Source: a virus
Direction: 5' to 3' (one strand)
Virus record (IMG/VR): IMGVR_UViG_3300025309_000221
Location: 1-20,419 of that record
DNA length: 20,419 nucleotides
Shown: one piece after another, positions 123 through 17,172 of the stretch
Layout of the letters: each line of letters starts with the position of its first letter
How positions within the stretch are numbered: position 1 is the first letter of the stretch
Translations under genes and position numbers: made by a program
Notes under the pieces: generated by a model
Told to the model about the DNA's origin: nothing
The model's input: only the letters and a program-made list of their open reading frames with translations
The model's database searches: none

Positions 123-314
123 TTATTTTCCCAGCATCTGTTCATGCGTCTGCATCCCGGTGCTGATTACTGTGGGTTCGATTTTGTATTCGGCGACAAC
201 CTGCCGAATAACATCGGGCTGTTCCGCCTCATTCAGTTTTTCGAGAAGCTCATCTTTGATGGATGTCTTCAGCAGCGCGTGAAGCAGCGCGAGCGTCGCG
301 TCATTGTCCGGCAT
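123..314 (-). CDS. Small repressor-linked protein, unknown function (63 aa)
   Basis: This short acidic and helical protein is encoded directly downstream of the repressor and overlaps its 3' end by 14 bp, so the two are probably translationally coupled. It begins MPDNDATLALLHALLKTSIK and contains a charged helix (KDELLEKLNEAEQPDVIRQV). No cysteine pairs, signal peptide or membrane segment are visible. I do not recognise the family. The gap to the next leftward gene is only 14 bp, so the three genes look like one lysogenic transcript. It could be a repressor partner or a moron; nothing in the sequence decides between these. Confidence 0.6.
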   Translation of the reverse strand: MPDNDATLALLHALLKTSIKDELLEKLNEAEQPDVIRQVVAEYKIEPTVISTGMQTHEQMLGK

Positions 315-681
315 CGTGTTCTCCCCTCGTCTCGGTTAATAAATCAAGCAACGCCGCCTGCGCTTTCGGCGTGAGCTTGTCGAACTCCCTCATCAACACC
401 TTGTGCTTGTCATTGATGGACTGCACGATATAAGCGCCCTGCGTTTGCTGCACCACATTCGCGGGACACTTGTCCCCCTTGCCTGTAGATAACCACTCAG
501 GGTTTACCCCCAACGCGCGAGCGACCGGGAACAAATAAACCGCCTGGATGCTTTTGGTGTTGCCGTTCACCCACCCAGAAACAGCAGCGCGACTAACTTT
601 TGCGGCGCGTACCAAATCAGCCTGCTTCATCCCTGTTTCAGCCAGTCTTTCATTTAACCGCTCAAGCGTACTTAGTGCCAT
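301..681 (-). CDS. CI-like phage repressor, XRE-family HTH, no autoprotease domain
   Basis: 126 aa. Residues about 8-65 form a classic lambda-repressor-like helix-turn-helix: MKQADLVRAAKVSRAAVSGW is the HTH core, followed by NGNTKSIQAVYLFPVARALG and the NPEWLSTG closing segment typical of XRE phage repressors. The remaining 60 residues are helical and charged. They contain no S24/LexA-type Ser-Lys protease domain, and the protein is about half the usual length of lambda CI. The repressor would bind operators in 682-772 and shut off the rightward early promoter. Without a self-cleavage domain, classical RecA-driven induction is not expected. The P22_AR_N antirepressor gene at 1309 offers an alternative way to inactivate it (inference). 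Start is the ATG at 681-679. Confidence 0.88.
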   Translation of the reverse strand: MALSTLERLNERLAETGMKQADLVRAAKVSRAAVSGWVNGNTKSIQAVYLFPVARALGVNPEWLSTGKGDKCPANVVQQTQGAYIVQSINDKHKVLMREFDKLTPKAQAALLDLLTETRGEHDAGQ

Positions 682-6273: not shown

Positions 6274-6681
6274 ATGACGAACCTATTTTTCCCCATCGAG
6301 CGGCTGCGCCTGTTTTCGGCGAATGGGCAGGTGTACCGCGCGTTCCATCACTTGCTGGCGGCGCGCATGGGGTCGCTGTTGATGGTGCCGCTGCATCTGG
6401 TGCTGGGGCGCTGCGACGCGGTGATCGACGGTTGCCCGGTGCCGTGGGAGGAGGTGCATGCGGTGCTGGATTATCCGGCGGTGAACCCGCTGACGAATCC
6501 GGCCAAGTGGGACATTGATGACCATGTGGCGCAGTTCGGCTACCTGGGCATCGCGCCGGCTGAATGCGTGCTGGATTACATCACGCCGATGGTGGGCGGC
6601 GAGGAGAAGGTGCTGCGGCTAGTGCATCCGTGCGGGGTGCGGTATGCGGTGGCGATGGGTAACGTTCAAATTGGGCGCTGA
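6274..6681 (+). CDS. Phage protein at the integron junction, unknown function, C-terminus possibly replaced (135 aa)
   Basis: Begins MTNLFFPIERLRLFSANGQV, 3 nt after the membrane-protein gene. It is a globular mixed protein with no recognised motif. The last residues, GNVQIGR, are encoded by AACGTTCAAATTG (6661-6673), a 13-bp exact match to one side of the attC repeats at 6856 and 8170. The natural 3' end of this gene was therefore probably cut and replaced when the cassette region arrived (inference). Codon use up to about 6650 is GC-rich like the phage operon; the DNA after the junction is visibly more AT-rich. Confidence 0.6.
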   Translation: MTNLFFPIERLRLFSANGQVYRAFHHLLAARMGSLLMVPLHLVLGRCDAVIDGCPVPWEEVHAVLDYPAVNPLTNPAKWDIDDHVAQFGYLGIAPAECVLDYITPMVGGEEKVLRLVHPCGVRYAVAMGNVQIGR

Positions 6682-6937
6682 TCTGCACGATTTACCAGCC
6701 GAACATCCAGACAGGAATAGACCTCTAGCAGGATGTTGGTACAGATGGACGAAAGGGAAGGCGTGGCGCGAAGTGAAGCAAACATTCGGCATCGCTCACG
6801 CTTCATACAATGATCTTGGCCCGGCATGGATAGAGACAAGCGTTTTTTGCTGGGTGCCCAACGTTCAAATTGAGGGGCAGGCCGCTTCTGGCCTGTCCCG
6901 CTCGAATGCAGGGTTGTGCGTCAATATTACGGAGTGA
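6644..6937 (+). CDS. Cassette-remnant ORF with attC-encoded tail, unknown function (up to 97 aa)
   Basis: The open frame runs through the partial attC at 6661 and ends just past the attC at 6856. The middle (about residues 13-70, including RPLAGCWYRWTKGKAWREVK and a WIETSVFCW segment) looks like a real short protein. The last 27 residues, starting VPNVQIE, are encoded by attC and the few bases beyond it, and are shared with the ORF at 7976. The ATG at 6644 overlaps the upstream gene by 38 bp and has a weak ribosome site, so the gene may be 5'-truncated or start elsewhere. No family recognised. Confidence 0.45.
   Translation: MRWRWVTFKLGADLHDLPAEHPDRNRPLAGCWYRWTKGKAWREVKQTFGIAHASYNDLGPAWIETSVFCWVPNVQIEGQAASGLSRSNAGLCVNITE
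6661..6673 (-). repeat. Partial attC (L'-spacer-core side only)
   Basis: AACGTTCAAATTG is identical to the first-core side of the two full attC sites. On the minus strand it reads CAATTTGAAC followed by the core G^TTACCC, whose last bases are phage DNA. No matching R''/L'' half was found within the next 130 bp, so this looks like a degenerate or truncated site at the left end of the array. Confidence 0.5.
6856..6919 (-). repeat. attC recombination site X
   Basis: 64 bp. Minus-strand order: R'' GCACAAC (6919-6913), spacer, L'' ATTCGAG (6907-6901), variable stem, L' CTCAAT (6874-6869), spacer, R' GTTGGGC (6862-6856). R' fits GTTRRRY exactly; R'' differs from the ideal complement by one base. 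L'' has one extra C relative to L', and a second unpaired base (T6896 on the plus strand) lies 8 nt further in. This matches the two extrahelical bases (G20'' and T12'') known for attC bottom strands. Inner stem: 6875-6883 with 6890-6899, loop GCTTCT. A near copy lies at 8170-8233. Confidence 0.8.
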
Positions 6938-6941
6938 GGAC

Positions 6942-7979
6942 TTGGAGAATGAATTGCGAACCATGCACTTGTTTGCCGGAATTGGAGGCGGATTGCTTGC
7001 CGATCTCATTCTCGGACACAGGCCGATTATTGCCGTCGAGTGGGATAAATACGCTTGCAGAATCTTGCGCGAACGAGCAGCAGGCGGATGGTTTCCACAC
7101 TTGTCAGTGTGGGAAGGAGACGTTCGGATGTTCGATCCATCCGAATACGCGGGGCGAGTGGATTGCATTCATGCGGGGTTCCCTTGCCAAGATATTAGTG
7201 TCGCTGGAAAACAGGCCGGGCTTGGAGAAGGCACTCGCAGCGGGCTTTACCGAGAAGTCTTGCGAATCGCTGGCGTGGTACGACCGCGATACATCTTCTT
7301 GGAAAACGTATCAGCGATCCTTTCTAACGGGCTGGGAACCGTACTCGGAGACTTGGCCGCGCTGGGGTATGACTGCCGATGGCTCTGCATTCGTGCATCC
7401 GATGTCGGAGCGCCGCATGGGCGCGATAGATGGTTCTGTCTCGCAACAATTGGCAACACCGAACACGATGGACAGTTTACCGCCGAAATCGGCGGAAGCA
7501 CTGGAGCGGGAAGCGACGATTGCGCGCCCTGGGCGCAGCAAGCCTGCGAACCTGCGCGACCAAGTGAGCAACATGCAGAACTGGCCGACACCAAGCGCGA
7601 CAGACTACAAAGGCAGCGGGAAAACGGGAACGCTACGCGACAGATTGGATTATGCGGTGGAGAGAGGCGCAACCAAGAGCAAGACATTTGCAACGCCGCA
7701 GGCGCGGGACTATCGGACAGGGCAGGAAAGCCGCTGGAACGATCCGGCGCGCAGTCGGAACTTGAACGACCAGATTGGTGGGCAACTCAATCCGAAGTGG
7801 GTCAGTTGGCTCATGGGGTTCCCAACAGAGTGGGCGCTCTTAAAGGATTAGGAAACGCACAAGTCCCGCTACAGGCAGCGGCAGCATGGCGGATTTTGAC
7901 GCACAACGTAGAGGTAAGGGGGCCGCGCTTTTGCGGCTCCCGCTTCACCGATGGGTTGGGAAACGAAAGGATGATATGA
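6942..7979 (+). CDS. C5-cytosine DNA methyltransferase
   Basis: 345 aa from a TTG at 6942 that has GGAG at 6931-6934; an ATG at 6963 is the alternative start. Transfers a methyl group from SAM to C5 of cytosine. Motifs in order: SAM-binding FAGIGGG (about residues 11-17), catalytic Cys in GFPCQDIS (Cys about 82), ENV (about 121-123), GAPHGRDRWF (about 156-165), then a long variable target-recognition region. After that come QLAHGVPNRV and GLGNAQVPLQAAAAWRIL (motifs IX-X, about 288-318). All key motifs are intact. The last 25 residues extend past the usual end. It lies in cassette 2 between attC sites and overlaps the next ORF by 4 bp. A different protein is readable in another frame at 7171-7851. 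The target sequence is unknown. Confidence 0.88.
   Translation: MENELRTMHLFAGIGGGLLADLILGHRPIIAVEWDKYACRILRERAAGGWFPHLSVWEGDVRMFDPSEYAGRVDCIHAGFPCQDISVAGKQAGLGEGTRSGLYREVLRIAGVVRPRYIFLENVSAILSNGLGTVLGDLAALGYDCRWLCIRASDVGAPHGRDRWFCLATIGNTEHDGQFTAEIGGSTGAGSDDCAPWAQQACEPARPSEQHAELADTKRDRLQRQRENGNATRQIGLCGGERRNQEQDICNAAGAGLSDRAGKPLERSGAQSELERPDWWATQSEVGQLAHGVPNRVGALKGLGNAQVPLQAAAAWRILTHNVEVRGPRFCGSRFTDGLGNERMI
7171..7851 (+). CDS. Overlapping-frame phage protein of the MRGSLAKI / WLMGFP type (226 aa)
   Basis: This ORF lies entirely inside the methyltransferase gene in another forward frame, yet it reads as a recognisable phage protein rather than noise. It has MRGSLAKI at the start, SSWKTYQRSF, YSETWPRWGMTADGSAF, NWPTPSATDYKGSG, and finally GGQLNPKWVSWLMGFPTEW. 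From memory, proteins with these motifs are common in phages near cytosine methylase genes. The WVSWLMGFP DNA is the same DNA that encodes methyltransferase motif QLAHGVPNRV in the other frame, so the overlap may be old and general. No obvious ribosome site precedes the ATG at 7171. Function unknown. It could be a true dual-coded gene or a conserved shadow frame. Confidence 0.5.
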   Translation: MRGSLAKILVSLENRPGLEKALAAGFTEKSCESLAWYDRDTSSWKTYQRSFLTGWEPYSETWPRWGMTADGSAFVHPMSERRMGAIDGSVSQQLATPNTMDSLPPKSAEALEREATIARPGRSKPANLRDQVSNMQNWPTPSATDYKGSGKTGTLRDRLDYAVERGATKSKTFATPQARDYRTGQESRWNDPARSRNLNDQIGGQLNPKWVSWLMGFPTEWALLKD

Positions 7980-8251
7980 AACCAATAACAGTATGGGAGC
8001 GATGGTACAACAAACCAGCGCCTGGAAGATACGAACACAACCATATTGAGGGCGGACACTCTGACAGAGATGTACCCCGCGCAATTATACAAGAGCAACA
8101 TAACTCATGGATAAATGCGGATGGGTGGAAGGCAACATTTTGCTATCTCGACGCAGATAATAAAGTAGTGCCCAACGTTCAAATTGAGGCGCGGCGCGCT
8201 GTTGCGCCGTCGCTCTCGAATGCAGGGTTGTGCGTCAATACTACGGAGTGA
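7976..8251 (+). CDS. Cassette ORF with attC-encoded tail, unknown function (91 aa)
   Basis: ATG at 7976 overlaps the methyltransferase stop (ATGA) and follows GAAAGGA. The first 66 residues, beginning MKPITVWERWYNKPAPGRYE and including HNSWINADGWKATFCYLDAD, form a small Trp/Tyr-rich domain without recognised family. The C-terminal 25 residues (VPNVQIE to NTTE) are encoded by the attC at 8170-8233 plus 18 nt beyond it. The tail is nearly identical to that of the ORF ending at 6937, although the bodies of the two proteins are unrelated. ORFs that stop in attC are common in integron cassettes. Confidence 0.6.
   Translation: MKPITVWERWYNKPAPGRYEHNHIEGGHSDRDVPRAIIQEQHNSWINADGWKATFCYLDADNKVVPNVQIEARRAVAPSLSNAGLCVNTTE
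8170..8233 (-). repeat. attC recombination site Y
   Basis: Same 64-bp layout as site X: minus-strand R'' GCACAAC (8233-8227), L'' ATTCGAG (8221-8215), inner stem 8213-8204 with 8197-8189 (loop GCTGTT), L' CTCAAT (8188-8183), R' GTTGGGC (8176-8170). The extra C in L'' and the bulge at T8210 are both conserved. Compared with X, four of nine inner stem pairs change and every change is compensated, which supports selection on the fold. The R'' of this site is an exact complement of the 5' end of cassette 1 at 9189-9183, over ten bases (GACGCACAAC). Confidence 0.82.
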
Positions 8252-8254
8252 TGA

Positions 8255-9181
8255 ATGATAAAACACGTTATATCTGTTTCTGGTGGAAAAGATAGCGCGG
8301 CAACGCTGTTGATCGCGCTGGAGAACTGCCAGCGTGAGCATGTGTTACCGATTTTTTGCGACACGGGGAATGAACACCAAGCAGTATATGAATACTTGAA
8401 CTATCTCGAACAGGAACTGGACATCAAGATCACGCGGCTTAAGGCTGACTTTAAGGAGAGAATGCAACGCCACCGAGAGCGGCTGCTTGAGATAGCTAAT
8501 GGCGGAGCAGATTATTTTCCATCCGCAAAATTTCCGTGGACAAAGGAAAGAGCCGCGCTGGCGGCGGATTTAATGCATCCAAGCGGCAACCCGTTTCTTG
8601 ACCTGTGCATGATTAAGGGTATGTTTCCATCACATGGTCGCCAGTTTTGCACCGAAGAGTTAAAACGCAATCTTGCCGTAGAGTTTCAATTGGAAATTGT
8701 GGATAGTGGTGATTCGATGATTTCGTGGCAAGGTGTTAGACGCGACGAATCTGCAAGACGTAAAAATGCAAAAAAGATGGAACGCATCGGGCCGCGCATG
8801 TGGGCATTTAGACCGCTTGTTGATTGGTCAGCGGTCGATGTGTTCGCATATTGCAAAGAAAGAGGAATACAGCCCAACCCGCTTTATCTGCAAGGGATGA
8901 ACCGGGTTGGTTGTATGCCGTGTATCAATGTCAATAAAAATGAGTTGCGTGAAATCGCAGCACGCTTCCCAGAACAAATAGACCGCATTAGAGCTTGGGA
9001 AAAAATAGTATGCGCCGTAAGCCGAGCCGGGATGTCATCAATGCTTCATTCCGGGGGGTTTGAAACAATAAATGATCGTGTCGAGTGGGCTAAGACTACG
9101 CGAGGTGGAACGCAATTTAATTTGCTCGACACGCTGACTGATTACAAAGCCTGTTCGTCGGCGCACGGATTATGCGAATGA
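8255..9181 (+). CDS. Phosphoadenosine phosphosulfate reductase family protein (PP-loop ATPase)
   Basis: 308 aa. The PP-loop SGGKDSAAT (residues 9-17) binds nucleotide and defines the adenine-nucleotide alpha-hydrolase fold of PAPS reductases, sulfurylases and DndC-type proteins. A conserved FCTEELKR segment follows in the middle, then [13 protein letters not shown] with a CxxC pair, and a C-terminal [10 protein letters not shown] with two more Cys that may join a metal or Fe-S site. Phage members of this family are common, but their substrate is unsettled. A role in sulfur chemistry of nucleic acids is possible, as is plain sulfate assimilation. Start ATG follows GGAG in the conserved sequence just beyond attC Y. 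It is the only gene of cassette 1, and its base composition is clearly more AT-rich than the phage operon. Confidence 0.82.
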
Positions 9182-9250
9182 CGCACAACTTAAATTCAAC
9201 GACACCCAATGTCGCCTCAATAGACACCGATGTCGCATAACTCAACTACC
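9181..9250 (-). other. attI-like zone upstream of intI
   Basis: Just 5' of intI, read outward on the minus strand, there are several GTT boxes: GTTGGTA, GTTGAGT, GTTATGC, GTTGAAT and finally GTTGTGC at 9189-9183. The last joins the first cassette. Two near-identical motifs, GACACCCAATGTCGC (9201-9215) and GACACCGATGTCGC (9223-9236), lie between them 22 bp apart, each an imperfect GACA/TGTC dyad. Known attI sites combine a core GTT box with extra integrase-binding repeats, and lie upstream of intI as here. Assignment is by position and pattern only. Confidence 0.5.
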
Positions 9251-9269: not shown

Positions 9270-10292
9270 ATGACTGAGATTCTGGAACAAGAAGCGACAG
9301 TTGAATCTGTTAAAAGCGACACTCCTCGCCCTGTGAAACTGCTCGACCATGTGCGCGAGCGCATTCGCGTCCTGCACTACAGCCGCAGCACCGAGACAAC
9401 TTATCTCTACTGGATACGCTTTTTCATCCTCCACAACAATAAACGCCACCCGCGCGACATGGGTGCTGCCGAAGTAGAAGCGTTCCTCTCCCACCTGGCG
9501 ACACAGCGCGAGGTTGCCGCTGGGACACAAAACCAAGCTATGCACGCCATTCTGTTTCTCTACAAGCAGGTGCTCGGCATCAACCTGCCTTGGCTCGACG
9601 GAATCACCCGAGCCAAACCATCGCAGCGTCTTCCAGTCGTTCTTACGCAGGATGAAACCCGCCGCTTGCTGGCGCAAACGCGCGGTGTGCCTGGGCTGAT
9701 CGTCAAGCTGCTTTATGGCACCGGTATGCGCCTCATGGAAGCGCTGCGCCTGCGCGTCAAGGATGTTGATTTCGAGCATCACCAGATCACTATACGCGGC
9801 GGCAAGGGTGACAAGGATCGCGTCACGATGCTGCCTGCAAGCATCGTCCCCGAGTTGCGCGCCTGTATCGAGCAACGCCAAAGAATGCACCACATCGACC
9901 TTGCCACCGGCATGGCGGATGTGGAACTCCCTCATGCGCTTGAACGCAAATACCCCAACGCCGGGAAAGAGTGGGGCTGGCAATACATTTTCGCAGCAGC
10001 GGGTTATAGCGCCGACCCGCGCAGTGGAGTGATTCGCCGCCACCATATCAGCGAAAAAACCATCCAGCGCCACGTTAAAGACTGTGCCCAGCGCGCCAAT
10101 CTGAACAAACCGGCGCACCCCCACACGTTGCGCCACAGCTTCGCCACCCATCTGCTGGAAAACGGCTACGACATCCGCACCGTGCAGGAGCTGCTCGGCC
10201 ATTCGGACGTGAGCACCACCATGATCTATACCCATGTGCTTAATCGCGGCGGTCATGGCGTGGCGAGTCCGCTGGACAGAATTGCAACATGA
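9270..10292 (+). CDS. intI: Integron integrase IntI
   Basis: 340 aa, colinear with IntI1 over its whole length. Core-binding domain about residues 22-110 ([40 protein letters not shown]). Catalytic residues: R154 ([11 protein letters not shown]), K179 (GGKGDKDR), H285 and R288 ([10 protein letters not shown]), H311 ([10 protein letters not shown]), Y320 ([11 protein letters not shown]). The region about 222-270 ([32 protein letters not shown]) is the additional segment that distinguishes IntI from XerC/D and phage integrases. Start ATG follows GGGAGG. IntI enzymes recombine attI with folded single-stranded attC. Nothing looks inactivating. Two attC sites lie upstream in canonical orientation. 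Confidence 0.93.
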
Positions 10293-10466: not shown

Positions 10467-13250
10467 GTGGCAAGCATAGAAGAACTAAAAAACCGAATTG
10501 ATCTGGAAGATTTGGCCGAGCGGCTGGGTCTGGAGCGTCCCGGCAAGACGGGCAACTGGAAAAGCCCGCACCACGCGGACAAGTCGCCCTCGCTTGAGAT
10601 TGCGCCGGCGCGCAACCCGAAGTCGTGGCGCGATTATTCGTCGGACGATGGCGGGTCGTGCATCGATCTGGTGATGTATGTGCGCGGCATTGATGACGTG
10701 GGCGAGGCGATCAAGGAGTTGCACAATATGTACGCCATCCCGCTGGATAAGCCGCAGCGCGCCGAGAATGAGCCGAGGCGCGAGGCCAGCCGCGCGGAGT
10801 ACATCGCGGAGCGCAGCGTCGGCGCAATCGCGGAGCGGGCTGTCGAGTATCTGGCCGGGCGCGGCATCTCGGAGGAGGTGGTGCGCCGGGCGATCAAGAA
10901 GGGCAGCGTGGGGTTTAACGATTACGCGAGCGTTAAGGTTGAGGAGGGGCAGCCGGGGCACGGCGGCCCGGCGGTGGTGTTTATCACGCGCACGCTGAAC
11001 CCCGGCCATGTGGTGGCGGTGGATATGCGCTATCTCGACCCGGCCAAGAACGGCAACGTGAAGACGCAGTGCCAGGGGGAGAAGTACGGCTACGGGTGGA
11101 CTTCCGATATCAAGCGCCTGCATGCGGCGCATACGGTGTATCTGGTGGAGTCGCCGATCAACGCGCTGTCCATCGAGTGTTGCGCCCTGAACGGTTCCGC
11201 CGCCTATGCGACGCGCGGGACGAATGTTGACCCGATCGATTGGGGCTTTTTGAAGGGCAAGAAGGTGGTGATCTGCATGGATAACGATCAGCCTTTGCCC
11301 GACAAGCATGCCGACGGGCGGCCCAATCCGAAGGCGGGCGAGCGTCCCGGCATGAAGGCGGCGTGGGCGTTGCATGAGCGGCTGACGGCGCTGGATATTT
11401 CGGCGCTGCTGGTGGATCAAGATGAGTGGAAGGACGACAAGGAAGCGCCGATCAACGATGTGAACGATTACCTGAAGCTGAAGGGTGCCGAGGGGCTGAA
11501 GCGCGCGCTGTGGAAGCTGGAGCCGTGGCTGATTCCGGGGCAATCCGCCAGCATCGAGGCGGGGTTCGGCAAGCGGCGGGTGTATTTGCCCTATCACGAT
11601 ACGAGCGCGTATACACATTACCGGGTGAAGGAGGATTTCACGCAGTTTTTTACCGAGAAGCGCAGCGTGGACGAGAAGGGCGAGGAGTATTTCACGCCCT
11701 GCTATTCCGATCTGGCGGGCTTCCGCGTGGCGGCGATTTCGCGGGTGACGATTTCGGGGGCAACTTCGACGATGACGGGCGACGAGGATAATCAGCCGAA
11801 GGTGTCTTTTGCAATATCTGTGCAGACGCCGCGCCACGGCAATACGCTGGTGCGGCGCGTGGTGGAGGACGACAAGCTGCACAACATCGACACCTGGAAG
11901 AAGTTCGGGCCGGTGTTCAATCAGTCGCCGTTCCTGCGCATGGTGAACATTCTGGAGCGCGCGGCGAATATCGGGGCGCGCAATGCGGCGAATTTTGTCG
12001 GGCTGTGCTACCGCGACGGCAAATTGATCGTGAACGAGGGGCCGGACTGTTATTTCACCAATCCCGACCAGCAGTGCCCGTACCACAATCTGACCTTCAA
12101 CTCTGGATCGCGCTCTGACGCGATGAAAGTGATCGGGGAATACCAAAGCACCTTCAAAAAGAACGCGGCCTTGTTGCCCCTTGTATGGGGCTTGGGTGGG
12201 CATCTCAAGGTTTTATTGGGGTTCTGGCCGCACATGATGATGCAGGCGGACAAGGGACAGGGTAAATCGACGCTGATCAAGCGGCTGGAGCGCACTATCG
12301 GCTTTACGATGTTTTCCGGGCAGTCGCTGCAAACCGAGTTCCGCCTGCTGACCTCGATTTCGCACACGTCGCACCCGGTCGGGTGGGAGGAGCTTTCGGC
12401 GCGGCGGCAAGACATCATCGACAAGGCCGTGGGCCTGCTGCAAGAAAACTACCAGTACACGGTGAACCGGCGCGGCTCGGATATGACCGAGTTTCTGATC
12501 TCGGCTCCGGTGTTGCTGGCCGGCGAAGATGTGCCGGTGCGCAGTCTGATAGGTAAGATCGTGCGCACCGAGTTGACGGGCAAGAAGGGGCCGATCATGC
12601 CGGACGATCTGCCGCGCTTCCCGGTGCGGCAGTGGCTTGAGTTTCTGGCGACGTTGCAGCGCGGGCAGGTGCTGGAGTTGTACGGGCGGATGCGAGAATT
12701 CTGTCTCGACCGCTCGATGGCCAGCGGCGAGGACGACGGCGCGGTGCGCATGGCCAGCAACTATGCGGCGCTGCTGACCTGCTGGCGCTATCTGTGCGAG
12801 TTCGCCGGGGTCGATCCGAAACAGGGCGATTTCACGCACGATCTGCTGGAGGAGATGAACCGGCATATCAAAGAGACCAGCGCCGACCGCGAGCCTTGGG
12901 TGTGGATCGTGGAGACCATCCTTTCCGAGATCGCCTCGCACCAGTATCAGCACCCGTACAAGTGGGATCACGTCGAGGGCGAGGAGTGCCTGCTGATCCG
13001 CACCAGCCATGTGATGGAGCACCTTGCCCGCACGCCGGCGCTGCGCGAGAAGTGGAACGGCCTGCCGGTGAAGTCTGACCGGGTGTTCAAGAAGCAGCTC
13101 AGCCAGGCCGAGGTGGTGCTGTCGGATACGGTCGAGCGTACCATCGGCGAGCGCCGTATAGGCCACCTGACCGCGCTCAGCCTGAACAAGCTGGAACAGT
13201 ACGGCTTATACGCCACCCCGACCAATCAACCAGGTAACCCATTCCCATGA
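10467..13250 (+). CDS. Phage/plasmid-type primase-helicase with Toprim domain
   Basis: 927 aa from a GTG with AGGGA 7 nt upstream. Order of parts: an N-terminal region laid out like a CHC2 zinc-finger domain (about residues 28-75, WKSPHHADKSPSLEI and GGSCIDLVMYV) but lacking most of the zinc-binding cysteines; a Toprim domain (about 222-275) with acidic VESP and VVICMDND motifs; a middle region; and a C-terminal ATPase with P-loop ADKGQGKST (about 594-602, K600) and a GWEEL segment near 630. It would prime and unwind DNA for phage replication. The degenerate zinc finger suggests altered primer-template recognition. The candidate origin follows immediately downstream. Confidence 0.85.
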   Translation: MASIEELKNRIDLEDLAERLGLERPGKTGNWKSPHHADKSPSLEIAPARNPKSWRDYSSDDGGSCIDLVMYVRGIDDVGEAIKELHNMYAIPLDKPQRAENEPRREASRAEYIAERSVGAIAERAVEYLAGRGISEEVVRRAIKKGSVGFNDYASVKVEEGQPGHGGPAVVFITRTLNPGHVVAVDMRYLDPAKNGNVKTQCQGEKYGYGWTSDIKRLHAAHTVYLVESPINALSIECCALNGSAAYATRGTNVDPIDWGFLKGKKVVICMDNDQPLPDKHADGRPNPKAGERPGMKAAWALHERLTALDISALLVDQDEWKDDKEAPINDVNDYLKLKGAEGLKRALWKLEPWLIPGQSASIEAGFGKRRVYLPYHDTSAYTHYRVKEDFTQFFTEKRSVDEKGEEYFTPCYSDLAGFRVAAISRVTISGATSTMTGDEDNQPKVSFAISVQTPRHGNTLVRRVVEDDKLHNIDTWKKFGPVFNQSPFLRMVNILERAANIGARNAANFVGLCYRDGKLIVNEGPDCYFTNPDQQCPYHNLTFNSGSRSDAMKVIGEYQSTFKKNAALLPLVWGLGGHLKVLLGFWPHMMMQADKGQGKSTLIKRLERTIGFTMFSGQSLQTEFRLLTSISHTSHPVGWEELSARRQDIIDKAVGLLQENYQYTVNRRGSDMTEFLISAPVLLAGEDVPVRSLIGKIVRTELTGKKGPIMPDDLPRFPVRQWLEFLATLQRGQVLELYGRMREFCLDRSMASGEDDGAVRMASNYAALLTCWRYLCEFAGVDPKQGDFTHDLLEEMNRHIKETSADREPWVWIVETILSEIASHQYQHPYKWDHVEGEECLLIRTSHVMEHLARTPALREKWNGLPVKSDRVFKKQLSQAEVVLSDTVERTIGERRIGHLTALSLNKLEQYGLYATPTNQPGNPFP

Positions 13251-13326
13251 CCTCTCTCCCCCGCACCCCCTCAAAGGGGAAGCTGCCGCTTTTTGGCGCG
13301 CAGAGCGCTATTTTTCCCAAAGGTTT

Positions 13327-13338
13327 GGGGGGGGGGGG
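13327..13338 (+). repeat. Poly-G tract (12 G)
   Basis: A run of 12 G lies between the primase stop and the first iteron, in non-coding DNA. It is liable to slip in replication and in sequencing. A shorter run of eight G is at 15113-15120. Confidence 0.8.
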
Positions 13339-13754: not shown

Positions 13755-14756
13755 ATGGATAAGTTGATCGAGGCGTTTTTGGAGTTCAAACAGCACAACG
13801 CTGGCCGCTCTGCGCGCACCGTCGAGGTGTATCGCCTGGCGCTGTCTCGCCTGGTGGAGTTCTTCGCCGGGCGCGATCCGCTGCTGGCCACGCATGATGA
13901 GCTGGTGATCTTCACGGGTATCTGGCTGCACAAGCGCGGGCTGACCGACCCGATGAGCCGCCGGCCACACATCGCGGCGGTGCGGGAGTTCTTCCGTTGG
14001 GCGCTGGATAACAAGCATGTGCGCGGCAATCCAGCCGAGGGGCTGCCCTACCCTTCCGTGGGTCGGAAGATCCCGCGCGTGATGACGTTGAAGAATGCCG
14101 AGCGGTTGATGTGGGCGCCGGATTTCAGCACGTTCGAGGGGGTGCGCGACGGTGCGATGTTGGCGCTGCTGGTGGGCTGCGGGCTGCGTGTTTCCGGGCT
14201 GGTAAATCTGAATGTGGGCAACGTGATCGAGGATGAGGTTGATGGGAAGGTGCGCCTGATATTGAAGGTGCGCGAGAAGGGCGACAAGGAGCGCCGCATC
14301 CCGATCCCGCCCGAGGCGGACATGCTGCTGCGCTTGTACATGGCGCACGAAGACTTAAAGCAGATCGACCGTCTATTGCCTAATGGTGATCAGGTGTTGT
14401 TCGTGAGCATGATGAACCGGACTATTTCGGTTGATGAGTATCGCGGCGAGCGCCGCCGCCTTAATCGCCGCGCGGTGTTGGAGATGGTGGCGAAGTATGG
14501 CCAGCGCCTGAGCATCCCAAACGAGCAGCTGCACCCGCATGCGATGCGCCATCTATTTGGCACTGAGCTGATCGAGGACGATGTGCACATGCTCAACGCG
14601 CAGAAGCTGATGGGGCACGCCGATCCGAAGAGCACCGAGATTTATGCGCACACGGCCATGCGCAAGCTGACGCGCGAGATAGACCGCGCCAATCCGCTGG
14701 CCAAGATGAACACGCCGGTCAGCGATCTGCTGAAGCAGCTCAACAGAAAAGGGTGA
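13755..14756 (+). CDS. Tyrosine recombinase, XerC/XerD-like
   Basis: 333 aa from the ATG at 13755; a longer frame reaches back into the iterons without a better start. It has an N-terminal SAM-like core-binding domain (about 1-100, RSARTVEVYRLALSRLVEFF) and a catalytic domain with R145 (GCGLRVSGL), K175 (REKGDKERR), H262 and R265 (HPHAMRHLFGTEL), H288 (LMGHADPKSTE) and Y297 (IYAHTA). All five are present. It resembles XerC/D in size and layout. Its position beside the candidate origin suggests resolution of replicated multimers (inference). The 236 bp after it, to 14992, hold no gene or clear promoter that I can see. Confidence 0.85.
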   Translation: MDKLIEAFLEFKQHNAGRSARTVEVYRLALSRLVEFFAGRDPLLATHDELVIFTGIWLHKRGLTDPMSRRPHIAAVREFFRWALDNKHVRGNPAEGLPYPSVGRKIPRVMTLKNAERLMWAPDFSTFEGVRDGAMLALLVGCGLRVSGLVNLNVGNVIEDEVDGKVRLILKVREKGDKERRIPIPPEADMLLRLYMAHEDLKQIDRLLPNGDQVLFVSMMNRTISVDEYRGERRRLNRRAVLEMVAKYGQRLSIPNEQLHPHAMRHLFGTELIEDDVHMLNAQKLMGHADPKSTEIYAHTAMRKLTREIDRANPLAKMNTPVSDLLKQLNRKG

Positions 14757-16927: not shown

Positions 16928-16972
16928 TGGCTCCCCGACCTGGACTCGAACCAGGGACCTGCGGATTAACAG
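16928..16972 (-). other. attP: Phage attachment core: 3' 45 nt of tRNA-Asn(GTT)
   Basis: On the minus strand this is the 3' part of a tRNA: anticodon loop CTGTTAA (anticodon GUU), 3' anticodon stem TCCGC, variable AGGTC, T stem CCTGG / loop TTCGAGT / CCAGG, acceptor TCGGGGA, discriminator G, CCA. The 5' half is absent: the bases before the loop (TGGTT) cannot pair with TCCGC and no matching acceptor strand is found. Homology begins at the anticodon loop, a usual crossover place for tyrosine integrases. It lies 88 bp after the integrase. Phage genes on both sides make attP likelier than attL or attR. Confidence 0.8.
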
Positions 16973-17172
16973 AACCATACTCTTTCTCAGCGCAAAAGCA
17001 AGCCCCGTCTGGTTTTTTGTGTTTTTGCTGTTCAATATAATGAAGAAATCTCCCCCTCGAAACCCTTGATTTTGCGTGGAGCATTTGTCTTTTATTGGAC
17101 AGTTTGAAGGTCGTGTAAACCGCCTCATTCCGGCCTGTTTGTGGCTTGCCGGTTGCGCGGATACTGTGCAGT

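Follow-up and report, generated by a model that had tools for sequence, protein, structure and literature searches.

A putative phage-adapted integron with reversed gene cassettes within a temperate phage's early operon

The window, by which we mean the whole analysed stretch of 20,419 bases from a virus record, very probably contains a complete integron that has become adapted to a phage, with attC sites whose bottom strand is the plus strand and with reversed cassettes that would be read by the phage operon. Judged from its sequence, this integron comprises an intact IntI, an attI site, three attC sites and three cassettes, and it belongs to a temperate phage, in whose early operon it lies. 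In a classical cassette the gene is located on the top strand of attC, with attC at the 3' end of the gene. By its enzyme, its attI and its attC sites the window element is an integron, but it lacks this classical gene polarity, since the genes are on the plus strand and the attC top strand is the minus strand. The features are as follows, with E values for attC sites taken from a covariance model (CM):

301-681, minus strand: phage repressor (phrog_4, E=1.2e-13), divergent from the plus-strand early operon, which starts near 773
6661-6859, strand unassigned: left edge of the array, a half attC relic and a cassette-like remnant reaching as far as attC 1
6661-6680: the half attC relic, AACGTTCAAATTGGGCGC, identical to the left half of attC 1 and attC 3, without CM match
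6856-6919, minus strand: attC 1 (minus strand only, E=4.9e-12), with C and A bulging from the minus-strand 5' half
6856-6862, plus (bottom) strand: R' box of attC 1, GCCCAAC, the predicted cleaved box
6860-7904, plus strand: cassette 1, with a C5-cytosine DNA methyltransferase gene (6942-7979; Pfam DNA_methylase, E=5.4e-34) behind attC 1
7901-7961, minus strand: attC 2 (E=9.9e-11, minus strand only), same three-bulge design
7901-7907: R' box of attC 2, GCACAAC
7905-8173, plus strand: cassette 2, attC 2 followed by a small plus-strand ORF (7976-8251) running into attC 3
8170-8233, minus strand: attC 3 (E=1.8e-13, minus strand only)
8170-8176: R' box of attC 3, GCCCAAC
8174-9186, plus strand: cassette 3, attI-proximal, with a PAPS-reductase-like gene (8255-9181; Pfam PAPS_reduct, E=8.3e-26) behind attC 3
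9183-9241, minus strand: attI, with the junction GCACAAC to the last cassette (AAC at 9187-9189), the conserved core AACTTAAATTCAACGACACC and then imperfect repeats
9270-10292, plus strand: intI, integron integrase of 340 aa, intact (NCBIfam TIGR02249, 477.5 bits, cut-off 265)
10467-13250, plus strand: phage primase (phrog_5629, E=0), directly downstream of intI

The order of the window is thus repressor (minus), early operon (plus), integron and primase, and two more tyrosine recombinases as well as a weakly matched terminase are also encoded. The primase is 62-63% identical over 99% to those of the P2-like Burkholderia phages KL3, KS5 and Musica, which have the same order of repressor, early operon, primase and integrase. 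Unlike in the window, the interval from the early genes to the primase contains small ORFs and no integron in KL3 and Musica. The three tyrosine recombinases of the window lie within 7.6 kb in the order IntI (9270-10292), XerD-like protein (13755-14756) and phage integrase (15772-16839), and a low-complexity run of about a dozen G (13326-13338) separates the primase from the XerD-like gene. A tRNA suspected near 16930-17000 was not detected there by ARAGORN.

Two 64-bp attC sites, at 6856-6919 and 8170-8233, had already been named in a preliminary description of the sequence, and their coordinates and sequences are correct, with boxes, spacers and L arms identical between them. As claimed there, the inner stems differ at four pairs, each of which (4/4) is compensated; the remaining differences are two loop bases and one bulge base between the named bulges (C versus A on the minus strand). 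The minus-strand left half has the described extra C (ATT-C-GAG) and, exactly eight bases further in, an extra A, which read on the plus strand are a G and a T whose identities and spacing match G20'' and T12'', the extrahelical bases of attC (PMC2727003). One further unpaired base is located between these two bulges, and bacterial control attCs of the same type share it. What had been overlooked is attC 2 (7901-7961), the relic at 6661-6680 and attI, and the description also did not reach the complete phage-borne integron or the opposition of its cassette genes to attC polarity. For the proposed scoring we used a covariance model trained on 38 attCs, which were taken from bacterial integrons and class 1 plasmids only. 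It recovered both described sites on the minus strand and gave three matches in the window in all, every one on the minus strand and none on the plus strand. Our own attC finder overlooked most of the sites that were later detected by this model. As a measure of covariation, paired cells amounted to 86.6% across 145 distinct attCs, nearly all of them viral, versus 67.7% in shuffles. The folding that had been proposed as a further check came out divided: the energies are unremarkable (z between -1.4 and -1.8 for either strand), and on the plus strands the single minimum-energy fold, which makes up only 2-4% of the ensemble, mispairs the R boxes, whereas in the centroid both AAC/GTT and the inner stem persist. 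Folding energy was therefore dropped as an attC test, and covariation and the covariance model were used in its place. With a resemblance far beyond chance, the window sites are, as judged from these comparisons, attC sites, and covariation, conserved extrahelical bases and cassette turnover in relatives indirectly support the view that they function through single-strand folding. The relic at 6661-6680 is fused to a phage gene whose terminal peptide, NVQI, also ends the ORFs that enter attC 1 and attC 3.

The bulges had also been held to fix the orientation of the sites, and three concordant tests agree on the minus strand as top strand and on the plus strand as bottom, i.e., recombinogenic, strand. 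In class 1 integron controls of known gene direction the bulges lie on the same side, and the array of Vibrio phage p16, with its genes on the minus strand, likewise agrees with the window in the side of its extra bases; from this it follows that the top strand is the minus strand and the bottom strand the plus strand, and the cleaved R' box is therefore expected to be the left plus-strand box. The second test is the bacterial-only attC model, which matches only the minus strand of the window. The third comes from sister phages, in which insertions and deletions of cassettes break at the predicted left plus-strand AAC (R') or at attI. The flanks are 96-100% identical in L006/L007, 99-100% in L008/L009 and 100% in L035/L038, and within each pair the contents differ by whole cassettes. 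The internal breakpoints in the three pairs lie 0-5 nt from the left-box AAC or attI; the exceptions are one end with an attC left unscored by the model, and blocks that end in attC or leader stretches of similar sequence. These phages are relatives rather than twins of the window phage, with IntIs 77-79% identical to that of the window in two pairs and 64% in L035/L038, and they are metagenomic contigs, in which repeated arrays can be misassembled. As read from these alignments, gains and losses of entire cassettes have occurred in relatives, the breaks lying at R' or attI. When all loci are turned so that intI is on plus, 176 of 178 attC sites in viral loci are on the minus strand and 2 on the plus strand, and in bacterial loci 225 of 226 are on the minus strand; the polarity of attC relative to intI is classical in viral and bacterial loci alike.

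What differs is the direction of the genes. Gene direction was scored by a codon model between neighbouring attCs, with a model-free ORF count as check, in a phage set of 30 loci, which combines the window with 28 viral loci and one phage-like MAG contig, L066, in which no gene was scorable. The best-scoring gene is opposite to attC in 95 of 98 cassettes (3 same), compared to 5 of 95 (90 same) in 29 bacterial loci, of which a few are mixed in gene direction. Since the cassettes are not independent (L044 and L045, e.g., are the same phage), the corresponding Fisher p=1e-44 is only descriptive. Counting simply the longest ATG ORF gives 79 opposite versus 22 same in the phage set and 14 versus 99 in bacteria; in about a fifth of the phage cassettes this ORF is on the other strand, and gene maps based on longest ORFs were dropped as misleading in GC-rich loci. 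Statistically, the cassette genes of the phage lineage sit on the strand opposite the attC top strand, and attC therefore precedes the gene, usually with a ribosome-binding site and a start codon behind it: a Shine-Dalgarno (SD) sequence plus start codon within 60 nt after attC on the plus side is found at 92 of 144 phage sites versus 10 of 150 bacterial sites, against a background of 14.6%. In the window all three cassette genes begin closely behind their attC, and in cassette 1 a GGAG/start region is located directly behind attC 1. The ORF of cassette 2 has no family match in the family scan, and the PAPS-reductase-like gene of cassette 3 also corresponds to phrog_424 (E=1.7e-65) and is similar to SspD/DndC-type models. 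Inside the methyltransferase gene (6942-7979) there is a second, overlapping plus-strand open frame (7192-7851, +1 frame). Both frames match phage DNA-cytosine methyltransferases in tblastn, as would be expected if the other frame carried the C-terminal part or if this part were encoded twice; a frameshift or an overlapping gene is possible.

The enzyme and the platform are those of an integron. IntI aligns to VchIntIA (2a3v, E=8.5e-87) and retains the catalytic signature residues of tyrosine recombinases, so that an intact recombinase of the intI family is found in the window together with attC sites that have paired R and L boxes, extrahelical bases and a covarying stem. An attI that adjoins intI and receives cassettes is recognised in the window by homology with relatives. 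It is located ~80 bp upstream of the intI start codon and was delimited by comparison of relatives, with the boundary at AACTTAAATTC: relatives are variable left of AACTTAAATT and conserved right of it, and insertions break there. We find the attI core AACTNNAATT in 27 of 49 viral and 2 of 74 bacterial loci, and the two bacterial carriers, L066 and L070, are short phage-like contigs inside the phage IntI clade. A perfect LexA-like box upstream of intI occurs in 1 of 49 viral versus 12 of 79 bacterial loci. The imperfect repeats GACACC-ATGTCGC of attI (9187-9241) recur in close relatives and could serve as an operator or as accessory sites for IntI. As intI is ~80 bp from the array, a CALIN, i.e., an attC cluster without integrase, was ruled out.

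In a quick IntI tree, in which the bacterial rows are the 80 nearest only, the window IntI falls into one clade of 43 rows (SH-aLRT 87), made up of 41 viral rows and the two short MAG contigs L066 and L070. The clade sits beside classical betaproteobacterial and gammaproteobacterial integrons, and all its scorable members are reversed except L015, which is mixed. Among the downstream proteins of the clade contigs, 29 of 74 match phage integrases, and others are tail proteins. Phages with IntIs only 63-69% identical have cassettes in common that show 86-92% nucleotide identity among the matches listed, and the bacterial matches to these cassettes, likewise among the matches listed and in a small bacterial sample, cover the attC part only.

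Other readings of the same locus have to be weighed against a functional integron of the phage. The window could hold an ordinary segment of a bacterial chromosomal integron with classical cassettes, either caught in a phage or mis-binned as viral, and the attC sequences are indeed much like those of Nitrosomonadales and Gallionella-type integrons; integron captures are also known in Vibrio phages (PMC9892861), and one viral contig of our set (L043) resembles such a case. We consider this improbable, because the window integron is flanked by a phage repressor and a P2-like primase, its IntI groups with the 41 viral rows among 43, the reversed genes in 95 of 98 scorable cassettes do not fit classical cassettes, and the genes downstream in relatives are phage integrases and tail genes. 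Equally improbable in our view is that the sites are dead remnants, in which recombination has ceased and the hairpins are kept as transcription attenuators or translation leaders. The position of attC as a 5' leader with an SD site and the decayed half-site at 6661-6680 would fit such remnants, but intI is intact, both the boxes and the extrahelical bases have been conserved, entire cassettes cut at R' or attI distinguish phages whose flanks are identical or nearly so, and whole cassettes are common to phages with rather distant IntIs.

The orientation itself could be questioned as well: if the attC top strand were really the plus strand, genes and attC would agree and intI would be the inverted part, as in Treponema integrons. 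The genes end close to the next attC as they do in classical cassettes, the Treponema-like arrangement exists (PMC3607928), and the phage Rctr41k may have one, which is a weak case. Against this speaks that plus-strand CM matches are absent from the window and limited to the 2 of 178 in other viral loci, that the extra bases are on the side seen in the class 1 controls, and that natural breakpoints lie at the left-box AAC and at attI beside the intI 5' end. It is the reading to which we give the least credence, and a Treponema-type inverted integron was ruled out by the position of attI at the 5' end of intI.

According to the phage-adapted integron that we favour, IntI would recombine the folded plus strand of attC by cutting the AAC of the left box, and the partner would be a double-stranded attI or another attC. 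Since the polarity of attC is fixed relative to attI, the incoming gene would always be oriented toward attI and intI, and because it faces them, it would not be read from a promoter at attI, unlike the genes of classical integrons. Cassettes of classical integrons are expressed from the promoter Pc at intI/attI. Judging from gene direction, Pc-driven expression is unlikely for the window cassettes; instead, transcription of the phage early operon would enter from the left, cross the array and continue into intI and the primase. What the array exchanges may be, with less certainty, DNA-modification and counter-defence genes. The Pfam matches among 111 cassette proteins point mostly to enzymes of DNA modification or to nucleotide enzymes, namely N6/N4 methylase (4), PAPS-reductase-like (4), Mom (3), DHH (3), Dam (2), C5 methylase (1) and MT-A70 (1), besides one weak match to an Acb2/Tad1 hairpin (5e-4). 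The array would be a store from which DNA-modification genes and other early genes can be switched, probably directed against host restriction and other defences, an anti-restriction role that is read from the gene names of about a fifth of the cargo. Taken more broadly, we rate it at somewhat better than even chances that there is a phage-specific lineage with turned cassettes, in which attC serves as 5' leader, the early operon replaces Pc and intI is co-transcribed behind the array, in which cassettes placed from phage into bacterial integrons or vice versa are silent, and which shares a separate pool of counter-defence genes.

Phage integrons and integrons with inverted intI are already known (PMC9892861; PMC3607928). 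Qi et al. (2023; PMC9892861) described three complete phage integrons, one In0 and 17 CALINs, most of them typical in structure and one element with divergent attC directions, and they found that attC sites of lytic phages were recombined by IntI1 in an assay. These phage integrons resemble the window in having integron parts and methyltransferase cassettes in phages, but neither a phage-specific IntI clade nor systematically reversed cassettes are described in that study. Our literature search, which covered few subscription papers and no bioRxiv preprints, likewise returned no account of either. The p16 array is classical in the scan with our own attC finder, and the known lytic-phage CALINs allow a weak comparison, with one CM site in TJE1 (plus, genes plus) and none in P12002L. 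With class 1 and beta- and gammaproteobacterial chromosomal integrons the window shares the IntI family (57% identity to IntI1, 58-67% to the nearest bacterial chromosomal integrons), the attC design, the polarity relative to intI and the crossover at attI beside the intI 5' end. Unlike in those integrons, its genes are opposite the attC top strand and face attI and intI, attC stands before the gene, intI and the cassette genes run in one direction, and phage loci usually have no LexA-like box upstream of intI. In Treponema integrons intI is flipped and transcribed toward attI (PMC3607928), so that cassette genes and intI are co-directional as in the window; in the window, however, the layout of intI and attI stays classical and the genes are flipped instead. 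In the phage Rctr41k (L004, KX853513), intI lies upstream of candidate attCs that share the polarity of the gene, an arrangement perhaps like that of Treponema; these sites come from our own finder only, and without a covariance-model match Rctr41k was set aside as a relative.

According to integron theory, the choice of the attC strand guarantees that a captured gene is expressed by the platform (PMC2727003). In the phage lineage this choice of strand persists but the gene is turned round; this suggests that the polarity of attC and gene can be uncoupled and matched again to another operon. Phages would thereby have a site-specific means of swapping DNA-modification genes, and the reversal suggests a barrier separating the cassette pools of phages and bacteria: if true, the inverted polarity silences phage cassettes in bacterial integrons and bacterial cassettes in phages. 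Annotation rules that presume agreement of gene and attC will misread such arrays.

Several loci outside the phage clade deserve mention. The viral contig L043 has at least ten classical attCs, its genes run in the classical direction, and it is apparently a captured chromosomal integron. Reversed loci outside the clade are L039, which groups among Gallionella IntIs, and L054, which is unplaced in the tree; together with L109 and L111 they do not fit a simple story of a single origin. In L109 and L111 (both Gallionellaceae) as well as in L039, the IntI is near a viral one and plus-strand genes are located upstream; the three may form a second reversed group, independent of the first, or be prophages.
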